Below the pieces are notes generated by a model that made no database searches, was not told the DNA's origin, and saw nothing but the letters and a program-made list of their open reading frames with translations. Position numbers and translations under genes: made by a program. From Gloeobacter morelensis MG652769 (GTDB taxonomy: Bacteria; Cyanobacteriota; Cyanobacteriia; Gloeobacterales; Gloeobacteraceae), in NCBI RefSeq assembly GCF_021018745.1, contig NZ_CP063846.1, positions 114,017-172,328 of the forward strand: a DNA stretch of 58,312 nt. The letters are read 5' to 3'. Of the stretch, positions 8,295 through 46,732 are shown in pieces. Numbering within the stretch: position 1 is the stretch's first letter; every line of letters begins with the position of its first letter.

Positions 8295-9691
8295 ACCATC
8301 AAGAAGATCCCTTGGCCGCGCTCAGGGAAGTAGTCGGAGACCCGCAGGAGCAACTACCGCCGCCCGAGGAAGAACCAAAGCCTACTGAACCGATGACGGC
8401 AGCCCAGCGTAAAGTCCGTGGCAAGAAAAAGGTGGCCGATCTAACATCGAAGCCTGTGGTAGCGCTTAGTCTATGGGGTGCGCTTATCGTCGGGGTATGC
8501 GCTGGGCTTTTTGCTATACGCTCGGTGGTCAACAGTTCCCAGGTGCGCGCGGCTAACGCCCAGAATAGCGAAGCAGCGGTCGATTGGAAGGTCAAGGCCG
8601 AAAAACTTCAGGCGCAACTGGACGAATCGGAGATCCAGAGATTAAAGGAGCAGGAAGAAAAAATTGCCCTGTCGCCTGAAATGTCTCGCCTCGACGGTGG
8701 GGTGCCGGCTCCCAAAAGTGCGCAAGGTTCAAGCGATATCCCGAGCCCGAGGCCGAGGCCGACAGGCCAGGATCAACCAATGCGGCAGAGGGGCGGTGGT
8801 GGCGGCGAAGCCAGAAGTGGCGGTGGCGGAAATCCGGTTTTCAGGGTCAAAGCCGCTCAGGATGGCCCCAAAGACGCGAGAGCAATGCTCTCAGGTAGCG
8901 TCACCAATACCGACATCGGGTACACCGAGGTGCAGGCCAAACAGATGATTGCCCAAGAAAAACCGACGAGCCTCTCGACATCGCTTTCCACCTCCGAACG
9001 GACAATACCCGCGACTCACCTTATCGAAGCGAGGCTGATTAGCCGGGTGCAGTTCGTGGGCAGTCAGGTGCTCGACACGCCGGTGATGGCTGAGGTCACT
9101 AAGGACGTGATGCGCACCAAGAAGCGCGGTCTCGAAGATTACGACGACGGGGCGCCAGAAAAAGTAATCGTGCTTCCGGTCGGCTCGATTCTAGTCGGCA
9201 AGATATCTAAGGTCGCGGGTAACGGCTTCGTGCTCATCGCCTTCAATTCAGCAAGGTTGCCGGGAGAAGATTCCGAACCTTTTGCCTTTCAAGGTATCGC
9301 GGTCGATAACGACGGCGGCGTGCTGGTGGCCAACGCGCCACGCAGGCCGGATCCGGCAGGGGCAGACGCGTTGGCCATTGCTTCGAGCGTGATGAAGGGC
9401 ATGGCCAGTGCCGGGTTGACCACTGTCGAAAACTACTCGGGTGGATTCGGTGGGTATGGGTCGATGGTGACGCAGAGCAATGCCAAAGACCCGCTCACCG
9501 AGGGAATCCGCCAGGGAAGCGACAGGTTGACGCAGACGCTCAGCCGAACGGCGAACGAAGCGCGACAGGCTTCGCGTTCCGGTGAACTGGATATGTTCTT
9601 AATGCCGGGGATGATCTTTAAGGTGATGACGACCGGCAAAATCGATGTGCCGCCGCCCGCACTGGCAGGGGGCGAGTACGAAAGGCCGTAG
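8291..9691 (+). CDS. virB10: VirB10/TraB/TrbI-type channel protein
   Basis: This is the energy-sensing core protein that spans both membranes in type IV secretion. The N-terminal cytoplasmic tail is acidic and Pro-rich. A single membrane helix lies near residues 50-75, followed by a charged coiled coil (about 95-130), a Pro/Gly-rich linker (about 150-195) and a C-terminal TrbI-like beta domain containing KVIVLPVGSILVGKIS and a VLIAFNSARLP segment. The 466-residue length is normal. GTG start overlaps the stop of the VirB8-like gene. Confidence 0.75.
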   Translation: MNHQEDPLAALREVVGDPQEQLPPPEEEPKPTEPMTAAQRKVRGKKKVADLTSKPVVALSLWGALIVGVCAGLFAIRSVVNSSQVRAANAQNSEAAVDWKVKAEKLQAQLDESEIQRLKEQEEKIALSPEMSRLDGGVPAPKSAQGSSDIPSPRPRPTGQDQPMRQRGGGGGEARSGGGGNPVFRVKAAQDGPKDARAMLSGSVTNTDIGYTEVQAKQMIAQEKPTSLSTSLSTSERTIPATHLIEARLISRVQFVGSQVLDTPVMAEVTKDVMRTKKRGLEDYDDGAPEKVIVLPVGSILVGKISKVAGNGFVLIAFNSARLPGEDSEPFAFQGIAVDNDGGVLVANAPRRPDPAGADALAIASSVMKGMASAGLTTVENYSGGFGGYGSMVTQSNAKDPLTEGIRQGSDRLTQTLSRTANEARQASRSGELDMFLMPGMIFKVMTTGKIDVPPPALAGGEYERP

Positions 9692-9717
9692 AACCCGATC
9701 CTACTGAAGGAGGAGCG

Positions 9718-10620
9718 ATGTCGAAATTTATGGGTCGGCTGGCAGTGGTGGCTGCGGCCGTGCTGTTGGGTACAGCGGTAGTTGACCATGGGCAGTCGGT
9801 TCAAGGAGCGGAAATACGGAAAATCAGCCTGCACAGCCTGCGCGGCAAAGTGTTCGCGGTACGGGTAGCTCCGGGCACAGAGCTTCAAATCGACGTCTCC
9901 GGCACCGGACAGGAGGTATCTCAGGCGACCTGGGGTGATCCGGCCGTCATCGGAGCGGAAATCATAAAAGTTAAAAAAAATGGAGATAAATCCGGGAAGG
10001 ATACGTGGGTGTCCAAGGGCGTGCGAATCGTGCCGCTCAAGGCAAAAGGGTCGACGAACATGACACTGTGGCTGGAAAAAGAGCGGCTCAACTTCTGGGT
10101 ATCGATAGGATATGGTAATCCGCACGTTGTCGCCTGGGAAATCACGGGCAGGAGCCAGGCAGATAGTGATATCCTGCCGTCGATCTTGCCCACGGCCAAA
10201 AGCAAGCGTGGCGAGCAGGAGATTGCCATTCGGCAGCTGCGCATGCAGATGGAACAGCTGGAAGACAAATTGAATGGTCTTCGAACGGCAGAAGATAATC
10301 TCAAGGACAAAAATGGGGAAATAAATCCAGATGGAACGCAGAAATCTTTGCCAGTTCAGGAAGCTCCAGATGCTGGTCTGCTACCGGCGCCGCAGCTAGT
10401 AAGCGATGAAGAGATTTCGATACCGATGCCAGACGGCTCGAAGCGTTCGGCGGGGGATCTCGATCGGCTGCAAAAGCGGATTGCGGGGGGTGGAGGCGAG
10501 CTAGGTGCCAAGCTCGGTGTACTGGTCAAAGAGCTTGGCCAAACCCGGGATCTCCAATCTGCGCTTGAGCGGGCGGGGATGGATCTGCCGCAGCTGCAAA
10601 AACTTCTCGCGTCGTCGTAG
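9718..10620 (+). CDS. VirB9/TraK-like secreted core protein
   Basis: An AAGGAGGAG ribosome site precedes ATG 9718. The N-terminus is a signal peptide (LAVVAAAVLLGTAVVDHG) and residues 40-145 read as beta-rich, as in the TraK/VirB9 secretins that cap the outer-membrane core. The C-terminal third carries a coiled coil (about 165-195) and a Gln/Asp-rich tail ending in QLQKLLASS. Identification rests on the signal peptide, the beta-rich domain and location directly after VirB10. Confidence 0.52.
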   Translation: MSKFMGRLAVVAAAVLLGTAVVDHGQSVQGAEIRKISLHSLRGKVFAVRVAPGTELQIDVSGTGQEVSQATWGDPAVIGAEIIKVKKNGDKSGKDTWVSKGVRIVPLKAKGSTNMTLWLEKERLNFWVSIGYGNPHVVAWEITGRSQADSDILPSILPTAKSKRGEQEIAIRQLRMQMEQLEDKLNGLRTAEDNLKDKNGEINPDGTQKSLPVQEAPDAGLLPAPQLVSDEEISIPMPDGSKRSAGDLDRLQKRIAGGGGELGAKLGVLVKELGQTRDLQSALERAGMDLPQLQKLLASS

Positions 10621-10622
10621 GT

Positions 10623-11669
10623 ATGCACACACTTTCCGCCATTGGCATGCTGGGTTTGCTCATTGTGGTTCATGAGCTGGGCCATTTTCTGATGGCACGT
10701 ATTCTAGGCATTAAAGTTTCCCGGTTTGCCATCGGCTTCGGGCCGATACTCTGGAAAGTGATGCTCGGAAAAACTGAATACAGCCTGAGGCTGCTGCCTT
10801 TCGGGGGATTTGTCGGTTTTCCCGAAGACGACCCTGATAGCGGTGTAGATAAAAACGACCCGGATTTGCTGGCAAATAGACCGGTCGTCGAACGCGCGAT
10901 GGTGGTGGCGGCCGGCCCGCTGGTGAATTTAATCGCACCTTTATTTATCTTAGCGACGCTTTTTGCCATAGGTGGGATGCCCCAGACATTGAATGAACCA
11001 GGCGTGGTCATCCTCAAAGTGGCAAAAGCTGGCGGTGCAGAGGTGGCGGGGTTGCGCAAAAAAGACGTGATCTTGCGGATGGCCGATGGGCCGGTGAGCA
11101 TGCCGCAAGAGTTCTCCATGCGCATGGGGTCGATCTCAGCGAACCAACCAGTTGAACTGCAGGTAAGTCGAGACGGCCGAATCTTGGTGCTGCAGGTCAC
11201 CCCCGACAACCAGGGGAAAATAGGTGTAGTTTTGGCGGCCAACGCCAAAACTATCTACCGGCAGGGGACGAATCCCGGAGAGCTGTTGATGGCCAGTGTG
11301 GAAGGATACGGGCGTATCGCGGCGATGACCTTCGAGAGCCTGGGGATGCTGGCGAGGGGAGAAGCGGGTATCGAAGATCTGGCCGGACCGGTCGGGATCG
11401 TGGCTGTAGCGGCGGAGGCAAGCGCGGCAAGATCTCTGGACTTGATCTTGATTGCAGCCCTGGTAAGCTTCAATCTCGGAATATTCAACCTGCTCCCGTT
11501 GCCGGCGCTCGACGGATTTCACCTGGGATGCTTTGCCTTGGAGGCGGTACGCGGCAAGCCTCTCAAAGAGAACGTACTCAAAGCGATCTCAAACGCGGGT
11601 TTGGTGGCCCTGATGGGCTTGCTGGTTGTGCTGGTGGCAATGGACACATTGAGGTTGCTCGAAGGGTAA
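10623..11669 (+). CDS. RseP-like site-2 protease (M50 metalloprotease)
   Basis: The zinc site HELGH is at residues 17-21 in the first membrane helix, and the third metal ligand motif NLLPLPALDG is near residue 292. A PDZ-like domain lies between about 120 and 200. These features define the RseP/S2P intramembrane protease family, which cleaves single-pass membrane proteins such as anti-sigma factors or remnant signal peptides. The gene starts 2 bases after the TraK-like stop and ends 3 bases before virD4, so it belongs to the transfer operon. A site-2 protease there is unusual; processing of a pilin or regulator is inference. Confidence 0.88.
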   Translation: MHTLSAIGMLGLLIVVHELGHFLMARILGIKVSRFAIGFGPILWKVMLGKTEYSLRLLPFGGFVGFPEDDPDSGVDKNDPDLLANRPVVERAMVVAAGPLVNLIAPLFILATLFAIGGMPQTLNEPGVVILKVAKAGGAEVAGLRKKDVILRMADGPVSMPQEFSMRMGSISANQPVELQVSRDGRILVLQVTPDNQGKIGVVLAANAKTIYRQGTNPGELLMASVEGYGRIAAMTFESLGMLARGEAGIEDLAGPVGIVAVAAEASAARSLDLILIAALVSFNLGIFNLLPLPALDGFHLGCFALEAVRGKPLKENVLKAISNAGLVALMGLLVVLVAMDTLRLLEG

Positions 11670-26549: not shown

Positions 26550-26624
26550 TTGGCCATGCTGGAAGAAGTTGCTTGGCCCGATGCTTTAAGCGTTGCTCTG
26601 CCTAGTGCTGGCAGGCGTGCAGGC

Positions 26625-28295
26625 ATGCGGACTCTGGAATTCAAGCTCTATTTGAAGGCCGAGCAGCAGAAGCTCGTCGATAGCTGGCTTACCGATTTGC
26701 GGGGGGTGTGGAACGCTGCCCTTGATCTGCTGTTGGAGCACGCAGCTTTCCGTGCCTGGGATCGCTTAGAGAAAAGCTGGGTGCCGTGCTGCCCGCTGCC
26801 GTGGAAGTTCAGGTACCGGCCCAATCCCGAGGGCGAGGGCTATATTGCAGTGGCCTATTCGCAAGCGGCACGCGTGCGCCCCTGGGCTCAGTTTTGTCCT
26901 TTGCCCCAGGATTATCGTGTGCCGCGTCTTGAGAGTCCGGGTGAGTTTACGCTGGCGGCGGAATTTGCCCACAAGCGCCGCCCATGGCTCGCCCATATTC
27001 CTGCTAACCTGATACGCGGGGTGATCGCTTCACTGGTGGCTGCCTGGGAGCGCCATAAAAAAGATCCGAAAAATTGTGGAGAGCCGAAATTCAAGCGGCC
27101 TGGGCGAGGTGATCTCGATACTTTAATCCACGGTGATCCCAAAGGCGCAAAAATTCAGCCGGGTGTACTGCCGAAGCGTCATCCTGAGATTGCTGATGCG
27201 CGCTTGCGTAAGCGCAAGATTGCCTTTCCAGGTTTAGGGGTACTGCACGCGCGCGGGCTTGAGCACTGGCCTGCCGAGGTACCGGTGTGCATGGTCAAAA
27301 TTACCCGTCGCCCATCCGGTTACTATCTGCAACTGACCGGTGAGCTGCCCGACTCCTGGCAACCCAAGGATGCAAGGCCCAAAGAGCGCGCGACGGCGAT
27401 TGCTTTTGACCCGCCCAAGCAGCACCATGCAGACGATACTGGTCGAGTGGTCTCGGCGCCGGCTTTTTTGCAACCCAAGCTCGACCGATTGGCCAAGCTG
27501 CAGCGTAAGGCAGACCGTCAGCAACCCGGTTCCAATCGCCAGAAACGCACCTACCACCGAATTGGCAAGCTCCACGAACAAATTCGTCTGGCCCGGCGCA
27601 ACTATAATCAAAAATTATCAACTTTTGCGGTACGCAAAGCGGGTGCGCTTGCAGTTGCTCAGATCCAGCCGGCTCTGAAAGTAAAAACCCGCAGACCCAA
27701 GCCTGTACCGAGCAAAAAGGGGCTGGGCACCTTTGATCCCAATGGTGCACAGCAAAAATCAGCTTTTAATCTGCGTCTGATCGATATCGCCCTGGGTCAG
27801 TTTGTGGCCCTGCTCGAAGCAAAGGCGAAATCGCGCGGGCGCGAGTTTCAGCGGGCGGTCAACGCTCCCGCTGCCAGTATTCGGGAAAAGGGGCTGGTCT
27901 CCTGGTCCCGGGTCTATCCGGGGTGGGCCGGAAGTACGGACGCAGAGGGGGGCGAAAGTTCTCCGGCGAAGCGTCAAGGAGAGCAATCTCCCCCTGGCGG
28001 GGTTCCCGCCACAGTTACCTCAACCTCCTCTACGAAGCAAAATTCAAGCTCCTCCGGTCCGAGCGGAACTACGGGCGCCAACAAAGGCCAAAAGCCAGAC
28101 AGTAAGCGCACCCTGCAGTCACGCAAGGCCAAACAGGTGCTTGAAAATGCCGAAAGCCAGGTGCAGAACGCTTCCAGTGCAGTCGATCCTCCTCAGGAAC
28201 AATATCAAATCGATCCCCAAAGCCCAAGGGCAAGGAGATCCACGAAAAAATCGGCAGAAGATGGGTCTGGCAGCGATTTTCGAGCACCGCCGTGA
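26625..28295 (+). CDS. TnpB-derived type V-U-like CRISPR effector, RuvC apparently inactive
   Basis: The N-terminus (MRTLEFKLYL, then GVWNAAL) matches the OrfB/TnpB and small Cas12 start, which is why I prefer ATG 26625 over TTG 26550 or ATG 26556. The middle carries TnpB-like segments: IAFDPP with RuvC-I Asp262, an Arg/Lys helical stretch (KLDRLAKLQRKADRQQ), and QKLSTFAVRKAGALAVAQI, where the RuvC-II Glu is replaced by Gln346. The segment VNAPAASI (about 412-419) corresponds to the VxPAxTSxxC element, but the zinc-ribbon cysteines and RuvC-III Asp are absent. A Ser/Pro/Gly-rich tail of about 130 residues replaces them. A CRISPR array starts at the base after the stop. It is not Cas12k by sequence; the closest group I can suggest is cyanobacterial V-U2 (c2c8). 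An RNA-guided DNA binder without cleavage is the inference. Confidence 0.8.
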   Translation: MRTLEFKLYLKAEQQKLVDSWLTDLRGVWNAALDLLLEHAAFRAWDRLEKSWVPCCPLPWKFRYRPNPEGEGYIAVAYSQAARVRPWAQFCPLPQDYRVPRLESPGEFTLAAEFAHKRRPWLAHIPANLIRGVIASLVAAWERHKKDPKNCGEPKFKRPGRGDLDTLIHGDPKGAKIQPGVLPKRHPEIADARLRKRKIAFPGLGVLHARGLEHWPAEVPVCMVKITRRPSGYYLQLTGELPDSWQPKDARPKERATAIAFDPPKQHHADDTGRVVSAPAFLQPKLDRLAKLQRKADRQQPGSNRQKRTYHRIGKLHEQIRLARRNYNQKLSTFAVRKAGALAVAQIQPALKVKTRRPKPVPSKKGLGTFDPNGAQQKSAFNLRLIDIALGQFVALLEAKAKSRGREFQRAVNAPAASIREKGLVSWSRVYPGWAGSTDAEGGESSPAKRQGEQSPPGGVPATVTSTSSTKQNSSSSGPSGTTGANKGQKPDSKRTLQSRKAKQVLENAESQVQNASSAVDPPQEQYQIDPQSPRARRSTKKSAEDGSGSDFRAPP

Positions 28296-28838
28296 GTGAT
28301 CTCGGCTCTCTGGAGGCAAAGGTGGCTGCACTAGGGGTGTGGGCTTTATTCTGAGCCGGGCGGTGAAGCCGTGAGCGTGATCTCGGCTCTCTGGAGGCAA
28401 AGGTGGCTGCACTTGTTGCCACCATACCAAGTGTCAGCCCCAAGGAAGTGATCTCGGGTCTCTGGAGGCAAAGGTGGCTGCACTTGTTGCCACCATACCA
28501 AGTGTCAGCCCCAAGGAAGTGATCTCGGGTCTCTGGAGGCAAAGGTGGCTGCACGTCACTGCGAAAAAGTGCATCGAAAGAGAAGGGCTGCGAGTGATCT
28601 CGGGTCTCTGGAGGCAAAGGTGGCTGCACAGGCGACCAGGTTACCCAAAATCCCGACAGAAAAACCGTGATCTCGGCTCTCTGGAGGCAAAGGTGACTGC
28701 ACGCTGGCTCTTGAATTTGGAAGCAATCTTTTACTCTGGTGATCTCGGGTCTCTGGAGGCAAAGATGACTGCACCTATTAAAGACATACAAAGTACGAAT
28801 TTCTCAAGGGTAATCTCGGCTCTCTGGAGGCAAAGGTG
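28296..28838 (+). CRISPR. CRISPR array, seven 36-nt repeats plus a degenerate eighth
   Basis: Repeats start at 28296, 28377, 28448, 28519, 28594, 28667 and 28739, each 36 nt, beginning GTGATCTCGG and ending GACTGCAC or GGCTGCAC; the eighth (28810 to about 28838) starts GTAATCTCGG and loses its 3' end. Spacers are 45, 35, 35, 39, 37, 36 and 35 nt. Spacers 2 and 3 are identical. Repeats come in two forms, CTCGGC or CTCGGG at positions 7-12. All contain TCTGGAGGCAAAG. There is no leader between effector and array and no cas1 or cas2 in the window. It is probably transcribed with the effector. Confidence 0.95.
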
Positions 28839-29195
28839 AACGAGCCGCCAATGGAGCGTAAGCCCGGGGCGAAGCAAGGCAACCCCAACCTGGACCAGAT
28901 GCGGGTCAATATTCCGGCCGTCAAGCCCGGCAAGCGGACCGTGATCATCTCCGTGCGCGTCACAGAAGACGAAGCGGACTTCCTTGATTCGCTCCCAAGC
29001 GGCCTATCAAAGAACGTTAGAGAAGCATTATCCCAGTACCTTAAGGAAGCCGGATGCCGGGGATCTGATGAGGCCGACCACATGGGCGAGGACGAGGACG
29101 ACACCTATGACTGGGGAGGTGTCGATCCCTTAACGATCGGTAAGCCGGTGTACCACGATCTCGACTTGGGTCTTCTCTTCATAGAAGAAGAGTAA
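28836..29195 (+). CDS. Ribbon-helix-helix protein starting inside the last CRISPR repeat
   Basis: GTG 28836 lies in the terminal repeat, whose TGGAGG supplies a ribosome site 7 bases upstream. After a basic Pro-rich N-terminus, residues 30-70 (TVIISVRVTEDEADFLDSL, then SKNVREALSQYLKEAG) match an RHH/Arc-type fold: one beta strand and two helices, usually a dimeric DNA-binding repressor or antitoxin. The C-terminus is very acidic. Its position makes it the third gene of the effector-array transcript. It may regulate the locus or work with the effector. Alternative start: ATG 28851. Confidence 0.65.
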   Translation: MNEPPMERKPGAKQGNPNLDQMRVNIPAVKPGKRTVIISVRVTEDEADFLDSLPSGLSKNVREALSQYLKEAGCRGSDEADHMGEDEDDTYDWGGVDPLTIGKPVYHDLDLGLLFIEEE

Positions 29196-37565: not shown

Positions 37566-38198
37566 ATGAGAGCCGGGCAAATCATCAGAGAACTTGCCTG
37601 GAGCCGCCGCAAGGCTTCGGCTGGGTATTTTGCTGGGGCGATGCTCCTGTATGCGGTTTGCTGGATGGCCTGGCAAGAGCTAGATCCGGCGTGTGCCCTT
37701 ATGGTGAGCCTGCCGCTAGGACTGGGCGCCCTGTACCCGATGGCCATGGCGAACCGCCACTGGCAAGGTGCCGAGAATGCGGCACGTGGAGCGAGAGCCG
37801 AAGAATCGGTAGGCCGGATACTTGCTCACCTGCCGGAAGGATGGTGGGTGGAGTACGGTCTGGTGGTTGCAGGTTTTGGCGGGGATCTCGATGTCATTGC
37901 AGTGTCACCTTCAGGCAAGGCTTTCGTCGTCGATGTCAAGAGCCACCGGGGCGAGGTCAGCTTCGAGTCCGGACAGCTCCTGCGTCGCCGCGGCAGACAC
38001 CGGGAAGCTTTCGAGAGAGACTTTCTGTCCGCGCTGCTGCGGCAGGCCCGTGCTCTTGAGATGGCCCAACACCTACACACGGTCGCTCCTGTGCTGTGTT
38101 TTACAGACGCCTCGCTGCGTTTGCCGAAGGCGAAGGTGCGGGGCGTGTGGGTAGTGCGATCGAGAGATCTGCTCGATTTTCTGCGCTCCCACGGTTGA
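37566..38198 (+). CDS. Membrane-anchored NERD-domain protein
   Basis: Two hydrophobic segments (about 21-37 and 45-62) are followed by a NERD domain: ARAEESVGRILAHLPEGWWV, then GGDLDVIAVSPSGKAFVVDVKS. The order G-D-x-D ... V-D-V-K-S is the PD-(D/E)XK-like nuclease core of the NERD family. Proteins of this type occur in plasmids and defence regions. Substrate unknown; DNA processing at the membrane is inference. Confidence 0.75.
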   Translation: MRAGQIIRELAWSRRKASAGYFAGAMLLYAVCWMAWQELDPACALMVSLPLGLGALYPMAMANRHWQGAENAARGARAEESVGRILAHLPEGWWVEYGLVVAGFGGDLDVIAVSPSGKAFVVDVKSHRGEVSFESGQLLRRRGRHREAFERDFLSALLRQARALEMAQHLHTVAPVLCFTDASLRLPKAKVRGVWVVRSRDLLDFLRSHG

Positions 38199-39031: not shown

Positions 39032-40669
39032 TTATTTGATTTGATTAGCGAACGCCTTTGCGTCGCCACAAGCGTCGCGGTAGACAAGCTTGTGGCGTAG
39101 GGATCGAGTGGAGTAGCCCTGTAGCGCAAGTTGGGCAAGGGCGTGGGTGGTGCGGTTGCGGGGGGGCTTCTTGCGACAGTAGGCGTTATCAAGCCAAATT
39201 AATCGCTCGACCCGGGGATGGGCCACGAGTTGGCAGTAAACCGCGACCGCGTCCCAGTCGCCCAGGGCGATGACGACCGTGATGGAGTGGCGCTCCAGCA
39301 GTTGGAGATACCAGGAGCGATTATCCGCCCCCCATTGCCCGTCGGCTTCCCCGTAGCGATCGATCGGTATGGGGCGGCCCGCCAGTTCGAGTTCGCTAGG
39401 ACAGCCATTGCTGTGGGCGAGGACCAGCACCTCAGCCCCCGGTACACCGAATGCTCCGCAGGCGCGCGCCACGGCCAGGGCAGGTTGCGAAAAGGAAGCG
39501 CAGGAGCCGGACACGTCGGCCAATACGAGGATCACCGGGCGACCGGCTTCCTCCCGCCGGGCGGGGGCGGGATTGCGGTGGGTAAGAAGCCGTGTGCAGA
39601 ATGCGGGCCAATCCCGTCGCGGTCCGGCCTCCTGCGAAGATTCGCCCACCAGGGCCGCAAGGCGTTCGCGCACCCTGCGCACGAGGGTGGGATCGAGCCT
39701 CGCTTCATTGAGGGAGGCGGTGATCCCGCCGTGTGTGGTTTTGCCGCTGGCCGAAAGTTGCCCAGAGCCGGCAGCTTTGAAGGGGGCGCCCCACTTTTTG
39801 CGCTGTGTGGGGCGGTCAGCGCCAGGGGTTTCGGCAGTCGCCTCAGGGGCGTCCTTGCCGTCCTGGGGTTGCTCGTCCTCGTCGGTGGTGTCGTGGTCGC
39901 CCACGGCATCCGACGAGGGAGTTTGTCGAGCAATCCCTTCGGCAGACCTGGTCTGCGACTCCTGAGCGTCGCGGGGCTCAGGGGCCAAAAAAAAGCTCGG
40001 TGTATGCGCAGTGGCGGCAGCGAAGGAGCTATCCGCGCTCACTTCCGCTCCTGGTTGCGCAGGGCGCTGCTCGCAGTGAGCTTGGTCGGGGCTGGTTGCC
40101 GCCGCATCCCCGGACGTGGGATTGCTCCCCGTCTCCGGGCTATGGGCGTTGGCCTGGGACTCCCCCAAACTGGCGTGGCCCACGCCGGTACCAGTCGGAG
40201 AACCAGAAGGCAGGCCCTCGGACTGCGAGTCGTGATAAGTGGCTGAAGGACTGTTGAACGAACCCTCGGGCACTTCGCCCGACGAGCTATTGCCCCCATG
40301 CGCCTCGGACTCCTCCAAGGGCGAATCGGATTGGGGGGCAACTTTGTCGGTGCCCTTGGGCCGAGACTCACCGCCCGCCTGGGTTTCAGCCATCTCAGGT
40401 GCTGAGTGCGGAGCGGTAAGGAGGGGGTAGTCAGCCCCTTTCAGCGCAGCCAACCTGTCGAGGCAGGCTGCAATATCCCGTTCGTTGCTCGCTGTCCCGA
40501 GCCCTAGAGCCCGGTAGAGCAAACTTGCCAGGGGGTAGTAAATGTCTCCATCTACTCTTTTGGCACCGTTGCCCCGGGCGATCAGCCGCTGGGCCTGCTG
40601 CACAGTGAGCGGCAGGGTGATTAAGGGAACGCGGCGGCCTCGTCCACCACGGTGACGGTGACTGTTCAC
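39032..40669 (-). CDS. VWA-domain protein (CobT-like partner of MoxR ATPase)
   Basis: The last 170 residues form a von Willebrand A domain: the MIDAS motif DVSGS is near residue 385 and GDWDA provides a later acidic pair. The first 90 residues are a folded helical domain and residues 100-290 are a disordered Ser/Glu/Gln/Pro-rich linker. The start overlaps the ATPase stop by 4 bases (ATGA). MoxR and VWA proteins work as chaperone pairs that insert metals or remodel complexes; some pairs have been linked to conflict systems. Which applies here is not visible. Confidence 0.78.
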   Translation of the reverse strand: MNSHRHRGGRGRRVPLITLPLTVQQAQRLIARGNGAKRVDGDIYYPLASLLYRALGLGTASNERDIAACLDRLAALKGADYPLLTAPHSAPEMAETQAGGESRPKGTDKVAPQSDSPLEESEAHGGNSSSGEVPEGSFNSPSATYHDSQSEGLPSGSPTGTGVGHASLGESQANAHSPETGSNPTSGDAAATSPDQAHCEQRPAQPGAEVSADSSFAAATAHTPSFFLAPEPRDAQESQTRSAEGIARQTPSSDAVGDHDTTDEDEQPQDGKDAPEATAETPGADRPTQRKKWGAPFKAAGSGQLSASGKTTHGGITASLNEARLDPTLVRRVRERLAALVGESSQEAGPRRDWPAFCTRLLTHRNPAPARREEAGRPVILVLADVSGSCASFSQPALAVARACGAFGVPGAEVLVLAHSNGCPSELELAGRPIPIDRYGEADGQWGADNRSWYLQLLERHSITVVIALGDWDAVAVYCQLVAHPRVERLIWLDNAYCRKKPPRNRTTHALAQLALQGYSTRSLRHKLVYRDACGDAKAFANQIK

Positions 40670-41493
40670 TTGGATGCCCGTCGGTATTCACCCCAGAGGA
40701 TCGCCTCTGGGGTGTCGCCCATGGCAGCGGTTAAAGCCTGCCAGTCTTCTGGCTCTTTGCAGAGCCAGCCTTCGATTAGCCGCCGTACATCGGCTGCGTC
40801 GTGGGCGATCGCCAGGTCGCCCATCAGGTTACGGATTTCCTGAAGGGAGGGAGCCGTTGCTCCCCCTTTCCGGATAACCCCCGCCATCCGCACAGCACAG
40901 CGGATCGCTCCCATGGGTGCACCAGTTGCCTGGCGCACAATATCTGCCTCGGTGGCAGGCGGCAAGAAGGTCATTTTGACCCGCAAGCCTCGGCGGAGAG
41001 TGGCCTCCATCAGAGGTCTCACTCCATTGGTGGTGAGCACCACCGTGAGGTTTGAGCATTTCGCCTGCCATACCTCACCGGTAGGACCAAAAACCCTACC
41101 GTGCTGGAGGAAATCCAGCAGCAAGGCTTCAGCCCGCTGCGGGGCTTTGTCGATTTCGTCCAGGCAGATCACGACTGGCCCTGCCTGAGAAGCCACGGCA
41201 GCCCGGGCCAGTATTCCGAGCTGATATGCCTCTTCGGGGTGCTCCACGCCGGCTGCCACCCGGCCGACGTGAACGCCGACGAAAAGTTCTTCGTCGCTTA
41301 GCCAGTTGTGGCTGAGTAGGTAGAGGTACTGCGCCCCCCATCGTTCAGCCAAAAACTGGCTGAAAGCCGTTTTTCCCGTGCCCGGGGGACCCTCAAGAAT
41401 GAGGGTTTTTTGTCCAACACGCGCTTCGAGCGCCCGCAGGGCCAAGCCCTCTTCAGCACGCAGATAATATTTCGTGGGGGCCAGAGAAGGCAT
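40666..41493 (-). CDS. MoxR-type AAA+ ATPase
   Basis: I use ATG 41493 (MPSLAPTKYYLRAEEG); the open frame upstream looks non-coding. Walker A GPPGTGKT is at residues 35-42, Walker B VICLDEIDKA around 108-117, followed by VVLTTNG (sensor 1). These, and the length of 275, fit the MoxR/CobS group. It is the first gene of a four-gene - strand operon with the VWA gene. Twin palindromes lie about 190 bases upstream. Confidence 0.85.
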   Translation of the reverse strand: MPSLAPTKYYLRAEEGLALRALEARVGQKTLILEGPPGTGKTAFSQFLAERWGAQYLYLLSHNWLSDEELFVGVHVGRVAAGVEHPEEAYQLGILARAAVASQAGPVVICLDEIDKAPQRAEALLLDFLQHGRVFGPTGEVWQAKCSNLTVVLTTNGVRPLMEATLRRGLRVKMTFLPPATEADIVRQATGAPMGAIRCAVRMAGVIRKGGATAPSLQEIRNLMGDLAIAHDAADVRRLIEGWLCKEPEDWQALTAAMGDTPEAILWGEYRRASK

Positions 41494-41680
41494 GGCGGTG
41501 TTCCTTATAATTTGAAGTCTAAAAAAGGTTTGCTGCACTGCATTCGACACGGCCATGCGGTGCCAGATATTGAGTTGCCAGTCGCGCCCGCCCCTACAGG
41601 CGTGGGTGTTGCCCTGGGTGCTATTGGGCTTGGTCGTCACTATTATTGGGTGTGCTCATTCTGTTCGAGCCCTGCCTTGT

Positions 41681-42083: not shown

Positions 42084-42755
42084 CTACAGCGGTTTGGCTT
42101 TGCCCCTGGTGGCGTGTTCCCAGCGCGCCAGGATGAGCCGGCAGCGCTCGGGGTCGATTTCGGTGGCGTAGCAAGTTTTGCCCAGTTTTTCGCAGGCGAT
42201 GAGCACCGTGCCTGAGCCTGCGAACGGGTCGGCGACGGTACGGGCGTGGCAGCAGGCGAGCAGATCCAAAGCCCATCCCAGAGGTTTGGCATGCTCGCCA
42301 CCGCCAGCCGATTTGTAGGGGCCTATCACCGAGGGGAAGTAGTTTCCGGATCTGAACCTGCCCGTAGCGAGGGAGCGATCGAATAGGTGTTCGCCGCCGG
42401 TGGTGAGGAACGCATTGCCCCAGTGCAGTGAGTGTGGCCCGGCCCAGCCTTCAAGCGAATGGGGTGCGTTTCTGAGGCAAACGACCTCCCACCAAAATCG
42501 CACCCCACTCAGGCAGACCAGTTTTGCATACTGCGGACCGCACCCGGCGACGATCCAGGCGTTGGCCGCCCGCTTGCAGGCGGCGATCTGCTCGCGCGCA
42601 GGCATCTCGAAGGGTGGATCGGTGAGTACCAGGTCCACCCCTTCGGCCGGGTAGTGATTGGTCTTTAGGGCGTCGCCCACCAGCAGCCGATGGCGGCCAA
42701 GTTCCCAGATTTGCCCCGGCTCAACCCGGTGCCCAGCCTCTGAGAAATTCAGCAT
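42084..42755 (-). CDS. DNA methyltransferase (beta-class N6/N4)
   Basis: The catalytic motif DPPF is at residues 46-49 and the S-adenosylmethionine motif DPFAGSG at 176-182, the order of beta-class adenine-N6 or cytosine-N4 methyltransferases. LTDPPFEMP and the closing EIDPERCRLI support this. At 223 residues it is short, so the target recognition region is small. Its first 35 bases overlap the 3' end of the helicase gene, so the two are translated together. A modification role in a restriction-like or anti-restriction system is the simplest reading. Confidence 0.85.
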   Translation of the reverse strand: MLNFSEAGHRVEPGQIWELGRHRLLVGDALKTNHYPAEGVDLVLTDPPFEMPAREQIAACKRAANAWIVAGCGPQYAKLVCLSGVRFWWEVVCLRNAPHSLEGWAGPHSLHWGNAFLTTGGEHLFDRSLATGRFRSGNYFPSVIGPYKSAGGGEHAKPLGWALDLLACCHARTVADPFAGSGTVLIACEKLGKTCYATEIDPERCRLILARWEHATRGKAKPL

Positions 42756-44829
42756 CTTCCTCTATCTCCGCCTCGGGGACTTTACGTGCACCGTTGGATC
42801 CGAACACGCGGCGCAGTTCCGCTGCCTGCCAGCCGGGGTGAAAATGGGCATCAAGAGCCAGGGCATCCTGTTCCAGGGCCACACAGAATCCAGGTTCTTC
42901 GTGGAAATACTTGTAGCAGAGCGGGTACAGCTTGAAAAAAGCCGACAGATTCAACCGGCTGCGCAGTTCCGACTGGCGGCCCTCCAGCACAAAGGCCACC
43001 ATGGGTTTTGGTCTGAGCGCCCTCGACAGCTCTGCGGTGTAATCCCCGCCGTCGCAATTGGGATACCAGATCTCCAATCCCCGAAGCACAGTGAGTTTGC
43101 CCACCAGCGACTCGATCTGTTCGCTTTGCAGGTAGAGCCACCATTTCGCGCGCTTTTCGCGGTAAGCGATCAATTCCAGGTGCAACAGCGCCTGCTTCGC
43201 TGCAGAAGGCGCGTTTTTAGATGGTGGTGCGATGGGCCGCACCAGCATGTTGCTCAAAATCCCCGGCAGATCGTACATATCGATGCTGCCTTTAGAGGGA
43301 GTGTACAGCGCGCACTGCAACGAGCCGGTACTGCGAAAAGAAGTAGCCTCCTTCACAATCGGGCTTGAGCCTTTGGCTCCCAGTTCACGCCACTCAGTGC
43401 CCCAGGCCCGTACCTGGTTGTTGATCTCGGCAATTGGCTGCCGGTAAACAGCCTCGCAGCGATCCAGGTAGTCGGCGTGCTCCGCGTCGAGCGCTCCTGC
43501 CAATTCGGGGTGGCGTAGTTGCCGGCCAATGGCGAGGGCCTGCAGCGGCCCCCAGCGGTCGAAGTACCCGGCGAAATCGTTGGGTTGCCGGTGGCAGATG
43601 CGCAGCAACCGGGCAAATGCGGGCCGCTCGACGGATTGCCCCTCGCGCACGTACAGTCCGATGCGCTCGATCACATACTGAGGCAGGAGGACGACCGCTT
43701 CGTAGTGCTCGAAACCGGGATGGCGTCCGAGTCGGCCGAGGCGCTGGATGGCGGTGGCACCGTCGGGGCTGTCGAAGATCAAGAAGTTGATCTTAAAATC
43801 GATGCCGACATCGAGGGTGCTGGTGCCGATCACCAGATCCGCGTCCAGGCCGTCTTTGATCAGGCGGGTATTCTGGGCCACCGTGAGGCCGAGTGGGGCC
43901 AACGCCTTTTTGAGCAACGGGAACAGGCGATGGACGGCAATCAGGCTGGTGAGGATCACCGCCCCCTTGCTACCCGGGTGGGCGCGGAACCAGTCGGTGA
44001 TCGAGTCGAGGTTCTCGCGCAGCCAGTCTTCTGCCCGCTCGCAGTTCACCAGGCGCAAAGTGCTCGGCTGCAGAATTTGTCGCCAGCCAAGTCCGGGAGT
44101 AGCTCCGCTTTTGTAGCCGCCCTGGGCCGCCGGGTCGATCACCCGGCAGCGGAAACCCGCCCGCTGCAGGTGGCCCAAAAAGCGTGGCTCGGGGGTAGCC
44201 GAGAGCAAAATAATTTTGCGCCCTGCTGCGGGACAGGCGGCCTGGAGTAGGAGCAGGGTGTTAAGGATACCCAATTGCTGAGGCACTCCCAGCACATGAA
44301 ACTCGTCGAGCACCAGGGCACGCTCGAAAGCCCGATCGACTTGCGCCCACAGCAGCGTCGGATCGTAGCCGCCCAGGCCCCGGATCTGGCGCCGCCTGAG
44401 GTACTCCACCAGGTAGTTGCCCTGGTGGAGGTAATAGAACAAATCGGGATTGGTGAGCAGGAATCCGCCCTGCGCCACATCCAGGAGCACCTCGCCGCGG
44501 CTGGCCTTTTCACGCCTGGCCCAACGCTCCAGCTCCGGGCCGGTGAGTCGATTAACTTCCACCTGCGGGCCGTAGGATTGCATCTGGCGCTGTTGATCGG
44601 CGACCAGGCTGTTGGTGGGGTAGAGGCCCACCACCCCGCCGGTGGCCAGATACGGCCGGTAGGCGGCCAGGGATTTGCCGTCGCCGGTGAAGGCGGTGTT
44701 GATCACCACATCCACTTCGGGATCTGCCAGCGCTTCCCAGGTGGCTTCCTGGTGCCAGGAAAATCCGAAGGTGGCTGCCGGGTCGGAGAGTCGCGAATGG
44801 AGAGGCGGAAGATGGATATGCACGTTCAT
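42721..44829 (-). CDS. Cas3'-like superfamily 2 helicase (type I-D style), orphan
   Basis: Motif I TGDGKS lies at 48-53, the DExH box DEFH at 175-178, SATP at 210-213, motif V TSTLDVGID at 336-344 and motif VI QRLGRLGR at 362-369. NTAFTGDGKSLAAY and GLYPTNSLVADQQRQ closely resemble the separate helicase Cas3' of cyanobacterial type I-D CRISPR systems. There is no HD nuclease and no cas10d, cas7, cas5, cas6, cas1 or cas2 in the window. About 330 C-terminal residues have no motif I know. It is coupled at both ends: 4-base overlap with the gene upstream and 35 with the methyltransferase. Confidence 0.78.
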   Translation of the reverse strand: MNVHIHLPPLHSRLSDPAATFGFSWHQEATWEALADPEVDVVINTAFTGDGKSLAAYRPYLATGGVVGLYPTNSLVADQQRQMQSYGPQVEVNRLTGPELERWARREKASRGEVLLDVAQGGFLLTNPDLFYYLHQGNYLVEYLRRRQIRGLGGYDPTLLWAQVDRAFERALVLDEFHVLGVPQQLGILNTLLLLQAACPAAGRKIILLSATPEPRFLGHLQRAGFRCRVIDPAAQGGYKSGATPGLGWRQILQPSTLRLVNCERAEDWLRENLDSITDWFRAHPGSKGAVILTSLIAVHRLFPLLKKALAPLGLTVAQNTRLIKDGLDADLVIGTSTLDVGIDFKINFLIFDSPDGATAIQRLGRLGRHPGFEHYEAVVLLPQYVIERIGLYVREGQSVERPAFARLLRICHRQPNDFAGYFDRWGPLQALAIGRQLRHPELAGALDAEHADYLDRCEAVYRQPIAEINNQVRAWGTEWRELGAKGSSPIVKEATSFRSTGSLQCALYTPSKGSIDMYDLPGILSNMLVRPIAPPSKNAPSAAKQALLHLELIAYREKRAKWWLYLQSEQIESLVGKLTVLRGLEIWYPNCDGGDYTAELSRALRPKPMVAFVLEGRQSELRSRLNLSAFFKLYPLCYKYFHEEPGFCVALEQDALALDAHFHPGWQAAELRRVFGSNGARKVPEAEIEEDAEFLRGWAPG

Positions 44830-45407
44830 ATTCCAAGGTGTGCCAGTTCAGTGCGATCCATCAGGCGCCGACCGCCCTGATTTTGCGCTAGACAAAGGTA
44901 AACCGGGTACTTCTGAAGTACTGCCGGACTATCGACCTCACGCAATCCTGGGCGGATGGCGGCCACCCACCAGCAAACCCCCTGCACCTCAAAGATTTTG
45001 CCTAGCGGGGCAGTATCGGCCTCGAACCACTCTGCAACCATGCAGGTAATAGCCGAGCGGATCTGTTCGATGGATTGTCCGTATCCCACAAACCAATCGG
45101 CCATACCCGTGGGCCGGTAGCAAATCGCTGCCTGCCTGTGGGCGGGCGGTAAACTGGCAACCTGCAGTTGCCTCGCCGCGGGTAGTTGCGACTTTTGAAT
45201 CTCTCCCCAGGACAACAAGAGTACTCGTGGCTTCTCGCTGGTGGCGGCAATGGCGAAATCCAGCGCGCCTCGGACGGCTGCAGCCCTCTCTTGCTTAGGA
45301 TGACTTGATATCCAGGCGCGCTGCTCGGGTGTCAGCCGCAAATTATACTGCGAGCCGATCGCCGGGCGCCCCCGCCTTGATAGGCGCTGCGTGCTTTTCA
45401 AATCCAC
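44826..45407 (-). CDS. Hypothetical protein with RHH-like N-terminus
   Basis: RLSRRGRPAIGSQYNLRLTP followed by EQRAWISSHP and RAAAVRGALDFAI resembles a ribbon-helix-helix DNA-binding start. The remaining 130 residues have an unknown alpha/beta pattern. Its end overlaps the helicase start by 4 bases, so it is part of the methyltransferase-helicase operon and may be its DNA-binding adaptor or regulator. Confidence 0.55.
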   Translation of the reverse strand: MDLKSTQRLSRRGRPAIGSQYNLRLTPEQRAWISSHPKQERAAAVRGALDFAIAATSEKPRVLLLSWGEIQKSQLPAARQLQVASLPPAHRQAAICYRPTGMADWFVGYGQSIEQIRSAITCMVAEWFEADTAPLGKIFEVQGVCWWVAAIRPGLREVDSPAVLQKYPVYLCLAQNQGGRRLMDRTELAHLGI

Positions 45408-45446
45408 TAGATACCTTCTTATGGCTTAGCCCAAAATCGCGTTTAA

Positions 45447-45998
45447 TCACCCCGCCCATGAATTTCCTCCAGCGTTATGGAAAAATATATACTCAATGTC
45501 CATGTGCCCCGGATCGGCCGACGCGACGGGCACACAGTTTGATTGGGTGTGAAGCGCGCGTACCCGGTAGTGCTTGATATCCGGGCCGTAGAATCGGGCG
45601 ACTTCCAGATCTGGTGTGCCGAAAAGAATCAGGTGCTGACTGTCCGGGAAATCGTCGCGCACTCCCCGAAACAAATCGACCTCACAGCCCCAGTGGCGCA
45701 CAGCCCAGCGTAGCGCCGCCAGAGCCAGGCGGTGATTCTCGTCGCGGATCTGATGCTGCGACATTCCCCAACACCCGAGACTCTGCACTAGCCCGACGGC
45801 ATTGCGCACGGTCGTGTACTCCACCTGCGGCCCCTCGGGCACCGCCGAGAGCCTATCCACATGGTGAATAGGCCCCCCGGGCTCCTCTGTGTAAAACCAA
45901 TGAGCGAAGTTCAGGGCGTACCAGATCGGAGCCCCTTCCCACGGAGGAGTCAATCCGGCCAGGGATCCACAAGGAACAATTTCGATCGATGGAATCAC
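45447..45998 (-). CDS. Hypothetical protein, first gene of the helicase-methyltransferase cluster
   Basis: 183 residues, Trp- and His-rich, soluble, with no recognised motif (YALNFAHWFYTEEPGGPIHH; DLFRGVRDDFPDSQHLILFG). The start is set by the CTCCTGCTCCTG arm of the palindrome, which on this strand is a strong AGGAG ribosome site 8 bases upstream. It is transcribed from the symmetric promoter at 46006-46071 toward the helicase genes. Confidence 0.55.
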   Translation of the reverse strand: MIPSIEIVPCGSLAGLTPPWEGAPIWYALNFAHWFYTEEPGGPIHHVDRLSAVPEGPQVEYTTVRNAVGLVQSLGCWGMSQHQIRDENHRLALAALRWAVRHWGCEVDLFRGVRDDFPDSQHLILFGTPDLEVARFYGPDIKHYRVRALHTQSNCVPVASADPGHMDIEYIFFHNAGGNSWAG

Positions 45999-46005
45999 TT
46001 TGCTT

Positions 46006-46071
46006 CTCCTGCTCCTGAATATATTATAGCGATTAATCTAAAAAGCGCTATAATATATTCAGGAGCAGGAG
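46006..46071. promoter_or_regulatory. Symmetric divergent promoter: 26-bp perfect inverted repeat
   Basis: Arms 46006-46031 and 46046-46071 are exact complements around 14 bases. Each arm carries, in order outward, TATAAT (46049-46054 on +; ATTATA at 46023-46028 for -) and CAGGAGCAGGAG, a -10 box and a ribosome site. It therefore appears to drive the - gene ending at 45998 and the + gene from 46076 equally. Confidence 0.8.
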
Positions 46072-46075
46072 GGAT

Positions 46076-46732
46076 GTGGTGGATTTGAGCGAGGCCAATT
46101 TCGAATCGTTGAGGCAGGTGGCGCCGCGTTTGCGCCAGGCGGAGGTGCGCAAATGCGCCGATTTGCTTTTGCCTCACTACCGTCTGGCCCTCGAGATCCT
46201 GGCCATCTGCGAGGAGCGACCGCAGGAAGCAGGGGAGATTGCCCGCCGGGCCGGGATCCACTCTGGCCTTGCCCTTCGCGTGCTAAAAACTCTCGCTGAA
46301 GGAAATTATGCTTTTCGTGCCGTAGGCAGCACCTGGCAGAGTGCCAGAACCGAGTGGTGGCAGGGACCGCGCCACGAACTGGAACTGCACACAAAGCCCC
46401 GTACCCGGCAGGAGCTGTGCGAATACACCCCGTCGCAGCTCTCGGAATTGGCCGGCCACCTCGGCTGCCAGGTGCGACCGCCGGGGCGCAAGGCCCAACT
46501 GATCGCAGCATTGTTGCAGTTTTATCATCATCGCCTATCCCTGTACAGGGATAGAATCTGGTCGGGCGCAAAGGCGCGGTGGAGGTTGCCTCAGCCAGGT
46601 TTGTCGTCGCCGTCACCTAAGGCCACGGGGATAGGGGGCAGCCAGCGCAGTTCAAACTCTCGCTCCCCGTCCTTCGGGCCGGACCAAAACCCGTGCCAGT
46701 GCGCCCGCCGGACATGCCCCCTGGGCGTTTGA
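46076..46732 (+). CDS. Winged-helix regulator with SAP-like segment
   Basis: GTG start after GGAGGG. Residues 35-85 (LALEILAICEERPQEAGEIA, then ALRVLKTLAEGNYAFR) read as a winged helix; residues 118-148 (YTPSQLSELAGHLGCQVRP, then KAQLIAALLQF) resemble a SAP-type DNA-binding motif. Beyond about residue 155 the frame crosses a 20-bp palindrome and overlaps the opposite AcrVA2-like gene, so the true C-terminus may be shorter or the gene frameshifted. Divergent from the helicase cluster, so it probably regulates it. Confidence 0.6.
   Translation: MVDLSEANFESLRQVAPRLRQAEVRKCADLLLPHYRLALEILAICEERPQEAGEIARRAGIHSGLALRVLKTLAEGNYAFRAVGSTWQSARTEWWQGPRHELELHTKPRTRQELCEYTPSQLSELAGHLGCQVRPPGRKAQLIAALLQFYHHRLSLYRDRIWSGAKARWRLPQPGLSSPSPKATGIGGSQRSSNSRSPSFGPDQNPCQCARRTCPLGV
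46535..46554. other. 20-bp perfect palindrome
   Basis: CTATCCCTGTACAGGGATAG reads identically on both strands. It lies near the end of the regulator's conserved part and just downstream of the opposite AcrVA2-like gene. Candidate operator or intrinsic terminator stem. Confidence 0.7.

Follow-up and report, generated by a model that had tools for sequence, protein, structure and literature searches.

The operon at positions 45998-42084 of the window (the whole stretch of DNA analysed, 58,312 nucleotides) is tentatively interpreted as an establishment, or counter-restriction, module of a mobile element, comprising a split methylase-helicase pair whose helicase derives from type I-D CRISPR systems; we put the probability of this reading at about 0.45. 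The broader reading, a methylase-helicase module of mobile elements, seems to us quite probable. The argument is based on the gene order and its recurrence in a second locus, the homologies of the helicase and the methyltransferase, and the settings in which their relatives and those of U183 are found.

Organization of the operon and its flanks

Four genes lie head to tail on the minus strand, and an inverted repeat and a divergent gene lie upstream:

45447..45998 (-), U183, predicted mono-ADP-ribosyltransferase with a GTG start; R111, T128 and D167-x-E169 are likely catalytic
44826..45407 (-), U193, small protein without known family; shares 4 bases with the start of the helicase gene
42721..44829 (-), Cas3'-like SF2 helicase of 702 aa; motifs I, II, III, V and VI are kept, and an HD nuclease domain was not recognised
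42084..42755 (-), short beta-class DNA methyltransferase, 223 aa; DPPF near the N-terminus, DPFAGSGT near the C-terminus
46006..46071, inverted repeat between U183 and the divergent gene; 29-nt arms, 97% complementary, 8-nt gap
46076..46732 (+), divergent gene, 218 aa; weak IclR-type HTH and, by eye, a SAP-like stretch

The distances between consecutive genes are 39 bases (U183-U193), -4 bases (U193-helicase) and -35 bases (helicase-methyltransferase). The initial annotation gave the coordinates, strand, frames and 35-base overlap correctly, but spoke of a methyltransferase "fused by overlap" to the helicase, whereas these are overlapping genes (44829-42721 and 42755-42084) for two separate proteins. 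The four genes likely form one transcription unit. The single promoter proposed for them agrees with the short or negative gaps and with the TATAAT in the upstream repeat, but a consensus scan revealed no promoter ahead of the operon. No nuclease domain was recognised in any of the four genes (Pfam, NCBIfam, PADLOC, PHROG).

Each arm of the inverted repeat contains TATAAT and AGGAG; the repeat is a probable shared promoter/operator of the U183 side and the divergent gene. As single-stranded DNA it folds at -28.2 kcal/mol (z -9.9). No second copy was found in the window (up to 3 mismatches) or the contig (up to 4, shorter pattern), and at the settings used no such repeat precedes the counterparts in L006, L062, L122 or L007. 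A Frpo-type single-strand promoter, an idea taken from PMC11541004, was rejected: the hairpin is strong, but no fitting -35/-10 was seen in the stem by eye. The divergent gene, a candidate regulator, matches PF09339 below the cut-off (E 0.0018) and has no tblastn match in L006. The contig bears conjugation genes (TraC, TrbL and TraG/TraD families) and ParA.

Three of the four genes recur in L006, a contig of a Desmonostoc MAG, including the helicase-methyltransferase overlap and an upstream U183 homolog; the identities to the window proteins are 42-46% for the helicase, 50% for the methyltransferase and 41% for U183. Given this recurrence of the pair together with the U183 homolog, the arrangement exceeds chance. 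A phage head gene adjoins the set in L006 (phrog_240, 2.2e-33). The third locus, L007, has the helicase and a small gene, without the methyltransferase and U183. Hence the conservation of neighbours, proposed earlier as a check, holds in L006 and only partly in L007, and the full recurring set is known from two loci only (the window and L006).

Origin of the helicase

Judged by sequence similarity, the helicase clearly descends from the type I-D Cas3', as initially annotated: the NCBIfam model TIGR03158 ("type I-D CRISPR-associated helicase Cas3'") matched it with 225 bits (E 1.2e-66, cut-off 69), and the PADLOC Cas3d model covered residues 14-661, i.e. the full length (E 1.2e-125). In the helicase tree the three "orphan" Cas3' (window, L006, L007) formed a single clade (100/99), apart from the I-D Cas3'. 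The tree contained 39 rows, these three and 36 Cas3' rows from retrieved loci, which were drawn from at most 30 best matches per search. More distant matches, L085-L087, L100 onwards, duplicates, L005/L040 and the rows whose match did not fall within one open frame (L086, L089) were left out, and the L007 helicase was cut at its frameshift. Long branches, the window among them, were flagged by the tree program, and hence the tree does not fix which lineage is sister to the orphans.

The region behind the helicase core is more diverged in the orphans than among I-D proteins. The C-terminal part of the orphans matches that of I-D proteins at 28-36%, whereas L002 matches other I-D proteins at 50-61%; the orphans differ from each other here as much as from I-D (33% between the window and L006). 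A nine-residue stretch after motif VI, present in all nine I-D proteins compared, is missing in the window helicase. Intact motifs combined with a diverged post-core part would fit a protein that retained the ATPase and lost the contacts with Cascade.

The helicase had no match among 50,697 phage records, and viral scans with it alone or as an alignment gave no relative; a sequence search of PDB returned nothing useful. Only 15 of 72,556 plasmid records matched, at 36% identity or less. Six of these plasmid regions were retrieved: Cas10d is annotated in five (L091, L092, L093, L095, L096), and the sixth, unannotated one (L094) has a Cas10d match by tblastn. Synechocystis PCC 6803 has an I-D locus on pSYSA. 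Partial matches at 44-45% in G597 and G458 both reach to within about 350 bases of the end of their contig, with a WYL gene alongside as in I-D loci, thus favouring neither orphan nor I-D status; short pieces matched at 49-53% in G129, G514 and G496. In G005, of the same genus, locus L040 comprises a WYL gene and a Cas3' that, by eye, is damaged in its DExH motif and its C-terminal part, and the 20 kb covered gave no Cas10d match. L040, which was kept out of the tree, is a remnant of an I-D locus, unlike the window helicase.

The I-D partners, missing according to the initial annotation, were indeed not detected. A Stanieria Cas10d query, which hit G286 at 72%, had no match in the helicase's own genome. 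Csc1 was not found in the genome either, with a weak control: of the 14 control genomes, just one gave a hit for this family, and that under the cut-off. Local tblastn over the whole 172-kb contig, window included, gave no match for Cas10d, Csc1, Csc2 or Cas6; the search scope was the contig for Csc2 and the genome for Cas10d and Csc1. Given the failure to detect Cas10d and Csc1 in the genome and the separate clade of the helicase, we reject the idea that the helicase is an outlying piece of an I-D locus, the case that had been named as a refutation of the initial annotation.

If the Cas3' look-alike instead served as a decoy, it would compete with the host I-D Cas3' for Cascade/Cas10d, the methyltransferase guarding against restriction. 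The similarity to Cas3' is indeed full-length, C-terminal part included, and I-D effector genes are also present in two of the three orphan-bearing genomes (L050 in G286, L089 in G395) and in a genus-mate (L037); the I-D Cas3' match in G395 carries two internal stop codons. However, two of three does not clearly exceed the share of sampled genomes that have any match, which is 18-33% when distant ones are counted (70/386 and 127/388). Besides, the own genome has no detected Cas10d or Csc1, all ATPase and helicase motifs are retained, and it is the C-terminal part that is least conserved. We consider a decoy improbable, at roughly one chance in nine.

The presence of a CRISPR array on the plasmid raises the possibility of a CRISPR-related role. 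The array (28296-28845; eight 36-nt repeats, the last one degenerate) adjoins a TnpB/Cas12-like gene and no I-D genes, and the Cas3' helicase might serve this array together with the adjoining protein, as both are encoded on the operon's contig. On the other hand, about 13 kb separate the array from the operon, the strands are opposite, and a crude scan found no array on the L006 contig or in L007 (elsewhere on the L007 contig it picked up a repeat in three copies), so that this explanation appears very unlikely.

The methyltransferase and viral helicase-methyltransferase pairs

The assignment of the methyltransferase to the beta class stands: it scores 39.6 bits with PF01555, above the cut-off, and motif IV (DPPF) precedes motif I (FxGxG), the order expected for beta-class N6/N4 enzymes. 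Of ten viral contigs retrieved with the methyltransferase pattern, eight have a helicase of another family directly upstream. These pairs (L052-L054, L056-L060), of which about six are distinct (L052/L058 and L053/L056 are near-copies), combine a ResIII/phrog_16-type helicase with a short DPPFEM methyltransferase.

In the methyltransferase tree, the ten helicase-partnered proteins (window, L006 and the eight viral ones) are split from six others by a branch supported at 96/94. L061 was omitted (44-residue match), L057 was trimmed to the first 215 residues and the ParB-fused proteins to the last 225-260, and the starts of L053 and L059 were shifted downstream. None of the five named phage relatives inspected has an annotated helicase within 3 kb. 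In the profile test, on the other hand, the window protein scored higher with the other-type profile (93 bits in two pieces) than with the helicase-partnered one (63 bits in one piece).

Wherever the sequence reaches, the helicase in the viral pairs is preceded by a small ORF of 152-222 aa. These genes are related to each other in six of seven viral loci, and not detectably to U193 or to the small ORFs at the same position in L006 (164 aa) and L007 (184 aa), which themselves have no detectable kinship to U193. The viral-pair helicases have no BLAST match better than E 0.2, and tblastn found no U183 homolog in these pairs. As the methyltransferase clade follows another helicase family in viral contigs, the order small gene, helicase, methyltransferase seems to be that of a phage or plasmid module whose helicase gave way to one of CRISPR origin; for the small genes, this comparison is one of position.

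The helicases of the viral pairs are a common phage family and may simply be replicative. The operon could be a replication or transfer accessory, where the helicase aids the processing of plasmid or phage DNA, the methyltransferase sets its timing, and neither takes part in conflict. Such a role would agree with the classification of phrog_16, the family of the viral-pair helicases tested, under DNA metabolism, and with one relative methyltransferase (L127) being near a replication initiation gene. A rare and patchy distribution, cargo-like positions and an ADP-ribosyltransferase as companion would hardly be expected from it, however, and we give it about one chance in eight.

The two upstream genes

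Both genes preceding the helicase were initially described as having no known family. This holds for U193, for which Pfam, NCBIfam, PADLOC and PHROG gave only one chance-level match at E<=1, and plasmid records and the viral scan no relative. By eye, its N-terminus contains a ribbon-helix-helix-like segment.

U183, on the contrary, is probably an ADP-ribosyltransferase, as predicted from the fold of a homolog and the R/T/DxE residues. It had no match at E<=1 in Pfam, NCBIfam, PADLOC or PHROG and none in annotated plasmid and phage records, and a PDB sequence search gave nothing useful, but homologs at 40-46% identity were found in L006, in a viral contig (L062) and in a prophage (L122). The structure model of the window protein was poor and was not used. 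The AlphaFold model of the L062 homolog, the one confident model of five (pLDDT 81.8, pTM 0.80), resembles ADP-ribosyltransferases among known structures (best Z 8.0, rmsd 3.4, 117 residues); the best Foldseek E was 0.12. The 50 listed structure matches comprise 10 Tpt1/KptA proteins and 40 that are titled, or that we take to be, mono-ADP-ribosyltransferases. The catalytic motif of these enzymes consists of R, S/T and ExE. In the four U183 homologs, R, T (S in L122) and D-x-E align, the first acidic residue being D.

The L062 homolog is near endolysin genes, and that in L122 is situated amid minor head/DNA-pilot, neck, protease and major head genes; neither has a relative of the window helicase or methyltransferase nearby. 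These settings bear on a further alternative, a defence system of plasmids and prophages, in which the methyltransferase would mark self, the Cas3' would sense or process unmarked DNA, and the ADP-ribosyltransferase would be the toxic effector that halts the infected cell. A potentially toxic enzyme, a self-marking enzyme and a helicase do share one operon, and plasmids and prophages also carry defence genes, with which such carriage is compatible. The adjoining AAA gene (41640-40666) has a MadB-like match, far below the cut-off; it and the VWA gene (40669-39032) were dropped as operon members because neither has a match in L006. Their absence from L006 also speaks against defence, as does the lack of a recognised nuclease; a PADLOC scan of 10 window proteins (37.6-48.7 kb) likewise showed no complete system. 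U183 homologs apart from the other genes, one of them inside a phage head operon, suit a phage effector better than a defence effector. Defence is rather unlikely in our view, while it is the strongest of the alternatives.

Proposed function

For the establishment module, we infer methylation, motor activity, complex formation, ADP-ribosylation, their timing and a protective role as follows. U193, the helicase and the methyltransferase would be produced together, with translational coupling of the latter two. Once loaded onto incoming or replicating DNA of the element, the Cas3' motor would carry the methyltransferase along it, and this DNA would be marked, probably at N6-adenine, ahead of host restriction. 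During this early phase the ADP-ribosyltransferase would modify a protein of the host, in the manner of T4 Alt. Protection of the element's DNA in a new host is the most likely role, at slightly less than even odds. Of the functions suggested initially, restriction is the weaker half, as no nuclease was recognised, and plasmid protection is closer to the evidence.

It is conceivable, if doubtful, that mobile elements captured a CRISPR effector helicase as a DNA-marking motor that moves a methyltransferase along their DNA, in the slot of the phage helicase and with an injected-type ADP-ribosyltransferase as a third arm. Parts of the host's immunity would in this way pass to the parasite, and I-D interference might be weakened by the motor as well. 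A CRISPR interference motor would then have left CRISPR and joined the equipment of the opposing side, and the helicase of methylase-helicase modules would be swappable between unrelated families, with gene order and overlap persisting. The question would then be what the motor contributes to the methyltransferase.

Comparison with known systems

DISARM, BREX and type III restriction-modification likewise combine a methyltransferase with a helicase, but their other proteins are missing among those scanned and no nuclease was recognised. Among the PADLOC hits listed for the 10 window proteins (for the methyltransferase, the best 25 of 41), there was no Drm model (DrmA, DrmB, DrmC) and no BrxC, PglX or PglZ, only a BrxH match of the helicase at E 0.039; Pfam, NCBIfam and PADLOC recognised no nuclease family, such as the type III Res nuclease domain, in the helicase. 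The operon thus fits neither DISARM nor BREX, as had been stated initially.

With the type I-D Cas3' (TIGR03158) the helicase shares homology across nearly the whole protein and the same motifs, differing in its own clade, the methyltransferase partner and the lack of detected Cas10d and Csc1 in the genome. U183 may share its predicted fold and R-S/T-ExE type residues with the phage and toxin mono-ADP-ribosyltransferases T4 Alt/ModA, ExoS, C3 and Tre1, but it is very short, its first acidic residue is D, and no sequence similarity is detectable. The viral pairs share the methyltransferase clade, the overlap or abutment with the helicase and the small ORF before it; their helicase belongs to another SF2 family, their small genes are not detectably related to U193, and a U183 homolog was not found.

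PMC5512222 describes methylase-helicase dyads in phages and conjugative elements, with the DarB antirestriction protein as the archetype: an EcoKI/TaqI-like methyltransferase and a SWI2/SNF2 motor in a single polypeptide. Of the protein-modifying domains in proteins of this kind, ADP-ribosyltransferases occur most often (PMC5512222). As a precedent DarB is disputed: the effects of plasmid-borne darB on EcoKI were, according to PMC11109961, independent of the protein. Like the DarB dyad of phage P1, the window operon joins a methyltransferase and an SF2 motor as a unit on mobile elements, in the company of an ADP-ribosyltransferase. Unlike it, there are two overlapping genes in one operon, in the order helicase then methyltransferase, the methyltransferase is PF01555 beta-class rather than EcoKI/TaqI-like, and the motor is Cas3'-type rather than SWI2/SNF2. 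The operon resembles a DarB-type dyad without belonging to it. The combination, for which the initial annotation named no match, has none in DISARM or BREX, but it has parallels in eight of the ten viral contigs and in the published dyads of phages and conjugative elements (PMC5512222).

Operon layout and the plasmid

The four genes are arranged in tandem as follows.

45998-45447, minus strand: U183, predicted ADP-ribosyltransferase, first gene
45407-44826, minus strand: U193, small protein, second gene
44829-42721, minus strand: Cas3'-like helicase, third gene
42755-42084, minus strand: methyltransferase, fourth gene

The intergenic spacings, in the operon order, are 39, -4 and -35 bases. The methyltransferase (METHYLTRANSFERASE) is a short beta-class enzyme (PF01555). 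The contig, C2 (172,328 bases, the window being its final 58,312; one of three contigs of the 5.1-Mb genome), carries TraC-, TrbL- and TraG/TraD-family conjugation genes and a ParA gene, and hence is most likely a conjugative plasmid.

Several other features were noted in the window. A near-perfect 29-nt inverted repeat (46006-46071), with TATAAT and AGGAG within both arms, separates divergent genes and could be either a mirror-image divergent promoter or, in the single-stranded DNA of a conjugative plasmid, a strong hairpin. Downstream of the operon, on the same strand, is an AAA and VWA gene pair (39032-41640; best plasmid match Thermovibrio, 34%); the former is MoxR-like with a MadB match under the cut-off, the latter is CoxE-like, also under the cut-off, with a long low-complexity stretch. 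A NERD-domain (nuclease-related) gene lies near the module (37566-38198, plus strand), and an M50-family peptidase gene (10623-11669) within the conjugation cluster adjoins the gene of a TraG-type coupling protein.

The helicase and its relatives

The helicase scored 225 bits against the type I-D Cas3' family and 1.2e-125 against the full-length Cas3d profile, with motifs I, II, III, V and VI all intact, and is the sole match of its kind in its own genome. In that genome we found neither Cas10d, for which the same query gave 72% identity in the Desmonostoc genome (G286), nor Csc1, a family with a weak control; on C2, none of Cas10d, Csc1, Csc2 and Cas6 was found. According to one study (PMC7648086), the HD nuclease is absent from type I-D Cas3' and located in Cas10d, and activity requires both proteins. 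Thus, no protein that would cut DNA together with the orphan helicase is known here.

Helicase matches (E<=0.001) were observed in 70 of 386 cyanobacterial genomes in one search and in 127 of 388 in another, the samples overlapping and both counts including the own genome. Two relatives are outstanding: one on the contig of the Desmonostoc locus L006 (G286:C98, 46%), the other at the coordinates of the Acaryochloris locus L007 (G532:C140, 49% over residues 5-538). Other full-length matches reached 44%, and partial ones 46% in the genus-mate G005, in a damaged I-D remnant, and 45% in G458, where the contig end truncates the match.

In a 39-row tree the three orphans (window, L006 and L007) form one clade (support 100/99), whose sister group is unsettled due to long branches. 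A nine-residue stretch behind motif VI is present in all nine I-D proteins compared and absent from the orphans. Between the orphans and the I-D proteins, identity is 44-51% in the core and 28-36% at the C-terminal end, the latter for the window and L006 only, as L007 has 12 residues there, not counted; the protein of L002, a type I-D locus, shares 58-65% and 50-61%, respectively, with other I-D proteins. The C-terminal ends of the window and L006 helicases are 33% identical.

As a side observation, the G005 locus L040 (9006-12144) contains a damaged Cas3' and a WYL gene, with no Cas10d match in 20 kb, and is a decayed I-D locus; in another genus-mate's locus, L037, I-D effector genes occur along with a run of array-like repeats.

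Counterparts of the operon

L006 (a 22-kb contig of a Desmonostoc MAG) comprises a U183 homolog (41%), a 164-aa small gene with no similarity to U193, a 763-aa helicase and a 188-aa methyltransferase 50% identical to that of the window, the last two overlapping by 20 bases. A phage head protein is encoded near this set; a neck match is weak. L007 consists of a 184-aa gene and a frameshifted helicase adjoining divergent WYL and Cas1-like genes (named from blast similarity), and its 28.5-kb contig gave no match to the methyltransferase, U183 or Cas10d. I-D effector genes are also present in both the Acaryochloris (L089) and Desmonostoc (L050) genomes.

The predicted ADP-ribosyltransferase

U183 profile searches gave two of 386 and two of 388 genomes, overall the own genome, G286 and G473. 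Homologs were observed in L006, in the viral contig L062 (46%) near endolysin genes, and in the G473 prophage L122 (40%); the L062 record contains no relative of the window helicase. In L122 the gene (9434-9931) sits among minor head/DNA-pilot, neck, maturation protease and major head genes, with an I-D locus ~35 kb off. This position in a head-morphogenesis operon suggests a virion-carried effector like T4 Alt.

AlphaFold with a four-sequence alignment yielded one confident model of the L062 protein (pLDDT 81.8, pTM 0.80; the other four, 49-54). Among the 50 structural neighbours listed, 10 are Tpt1/KptA and the remaining 40 are, by title or otherwise, known mono-ADP-ribosyltransferases; the best Z is 8.0, and values under 8 can reflect a common arrangement. 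Foldseek gave nothing under E 0.1, and in a viral structure library ADP-ribosyltransferases ranked second and fourth, without significance. The assignment of the family rests on the uniform neighbour list and on the R..T..DxE residues, noted ahead of the confident model, though after a poor one.

Viral helicase-methyltransferase pairs

Scanning viral contigs with a pattern from a two-row methyltransferase alignment produced ten loci. The pattern contained TDPPFEM, hence these relatives are not a random draw, and there was no selection for helicases. In eight of them (L052, L053, L054, L056, L057, L058, L059 and L060, the frame being split in L058; about six distinct lineages) a helicase ORF ends from 1 base before to ~90 bases behind the methyltransferase start; the exceptions are L055 (a longer protein, ParB-fused in appearance) and L061 (a weak match). 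The partner helicases match ResIII and Helicase_C (6/6 tested in Pfam) and phrog_16 (5/5 tested in PHROGs); none matched the Cas3' helicases by BLAST better than E 0.2. As a control, no annotated helicase was seen within 3 kb in the five inspected of 89 matching named-phage records (25.9-28.1% identity).

All seven loci long enough to show it have an ORF of 152-222 aa in front of the helicase (in L058, one of 163 aa, with a gap). In six of these loci, all except L060, blastp connects the small proteins with one another (E 1.7e-6 or lower), and it connects none with U193 or the small proteins of L006 and L007. In a methyltransferase tree (n = 16) the ten helicase-partnered enzymes form one side of a 96/94 branch. 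Profile scores gave a less clear picture: the L006 enzyme scored higher with the helicase-partnered profile (88 bits) than with the other (73), and the window enzyme lower (63 and 93 bits, the latter in two pieces skipping the middle).

The viral cargo in L052-L060 is a related small protein, a ResIII/phrog_16-type helicase and a short DPPFEM methyltransferase, followed in three of eight loci by a 65-69 aa gene, ribbon-helix-helix-like by eye. L052 encodes a transposition protein (phrog_296), hence its carrier is probably a transposable phage. Among 50,697 phage records, nothing matched the two methyltransferases of this cargo that were searched.

CRISPR array on the same plasmid

C2 also carries a CRISPR array at 28296-28845, in which 36-nt repeats (eight, the last of them degenerate) alternate with seven spacers, each 35-45 nt long; two of the spacers have the same sequence. 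The array immediately follows a 581-aa gene (26550-28845 together) that matches OrfB_IS605 and, weakly, TnpB and Cas12 structures. On visual inspection, the C-terminal part of the encoded protein shows no clear RuvC catalytic residues. A search of the window for complementary anti-repeats of at least 12 nt gave none. The TnpB/Cas12-like gene and the array look like a compact type V-like system. The array is ~13 kb away from the operon, and no link between them was seen; its presence allows for a CRISPR-related role, which we hold to be very improbable.

Comparison with published dyads

We read the module as a small gene, an SF2 helicase and a short methyltransferase, abutting or overlapping, on plasmids and phages, where the helicase family is exchangeable and the cyanobacterial version is a captured Cas3'. 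Among the open-licence PMC papers listed in our searches, none describes the set by title or abstract start. A survey (PMC5512222) describes a DNA methylase-helicase dyad of conjugative elements and phages, with DarB as the antirestriction archetype and ADP-ribosyltransferases as the commonest protein-modifying domain in proteins of this kind, and proposes that the motor travels along incoming DNA, permitting its methylation. Most likely, by analogy, this working idea applies to the window operon: its helicase would move along incoming DNA and let it be methylated. As the effect of DarB is disputed in one experimental paper (PMC11109961), we hold this role at lower confidence than the anatomy. 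The operon is not itself a DarB-type dyad, since the defining features differ: it has another methyltransferase class and another helicase family, encoded as separate proteins.
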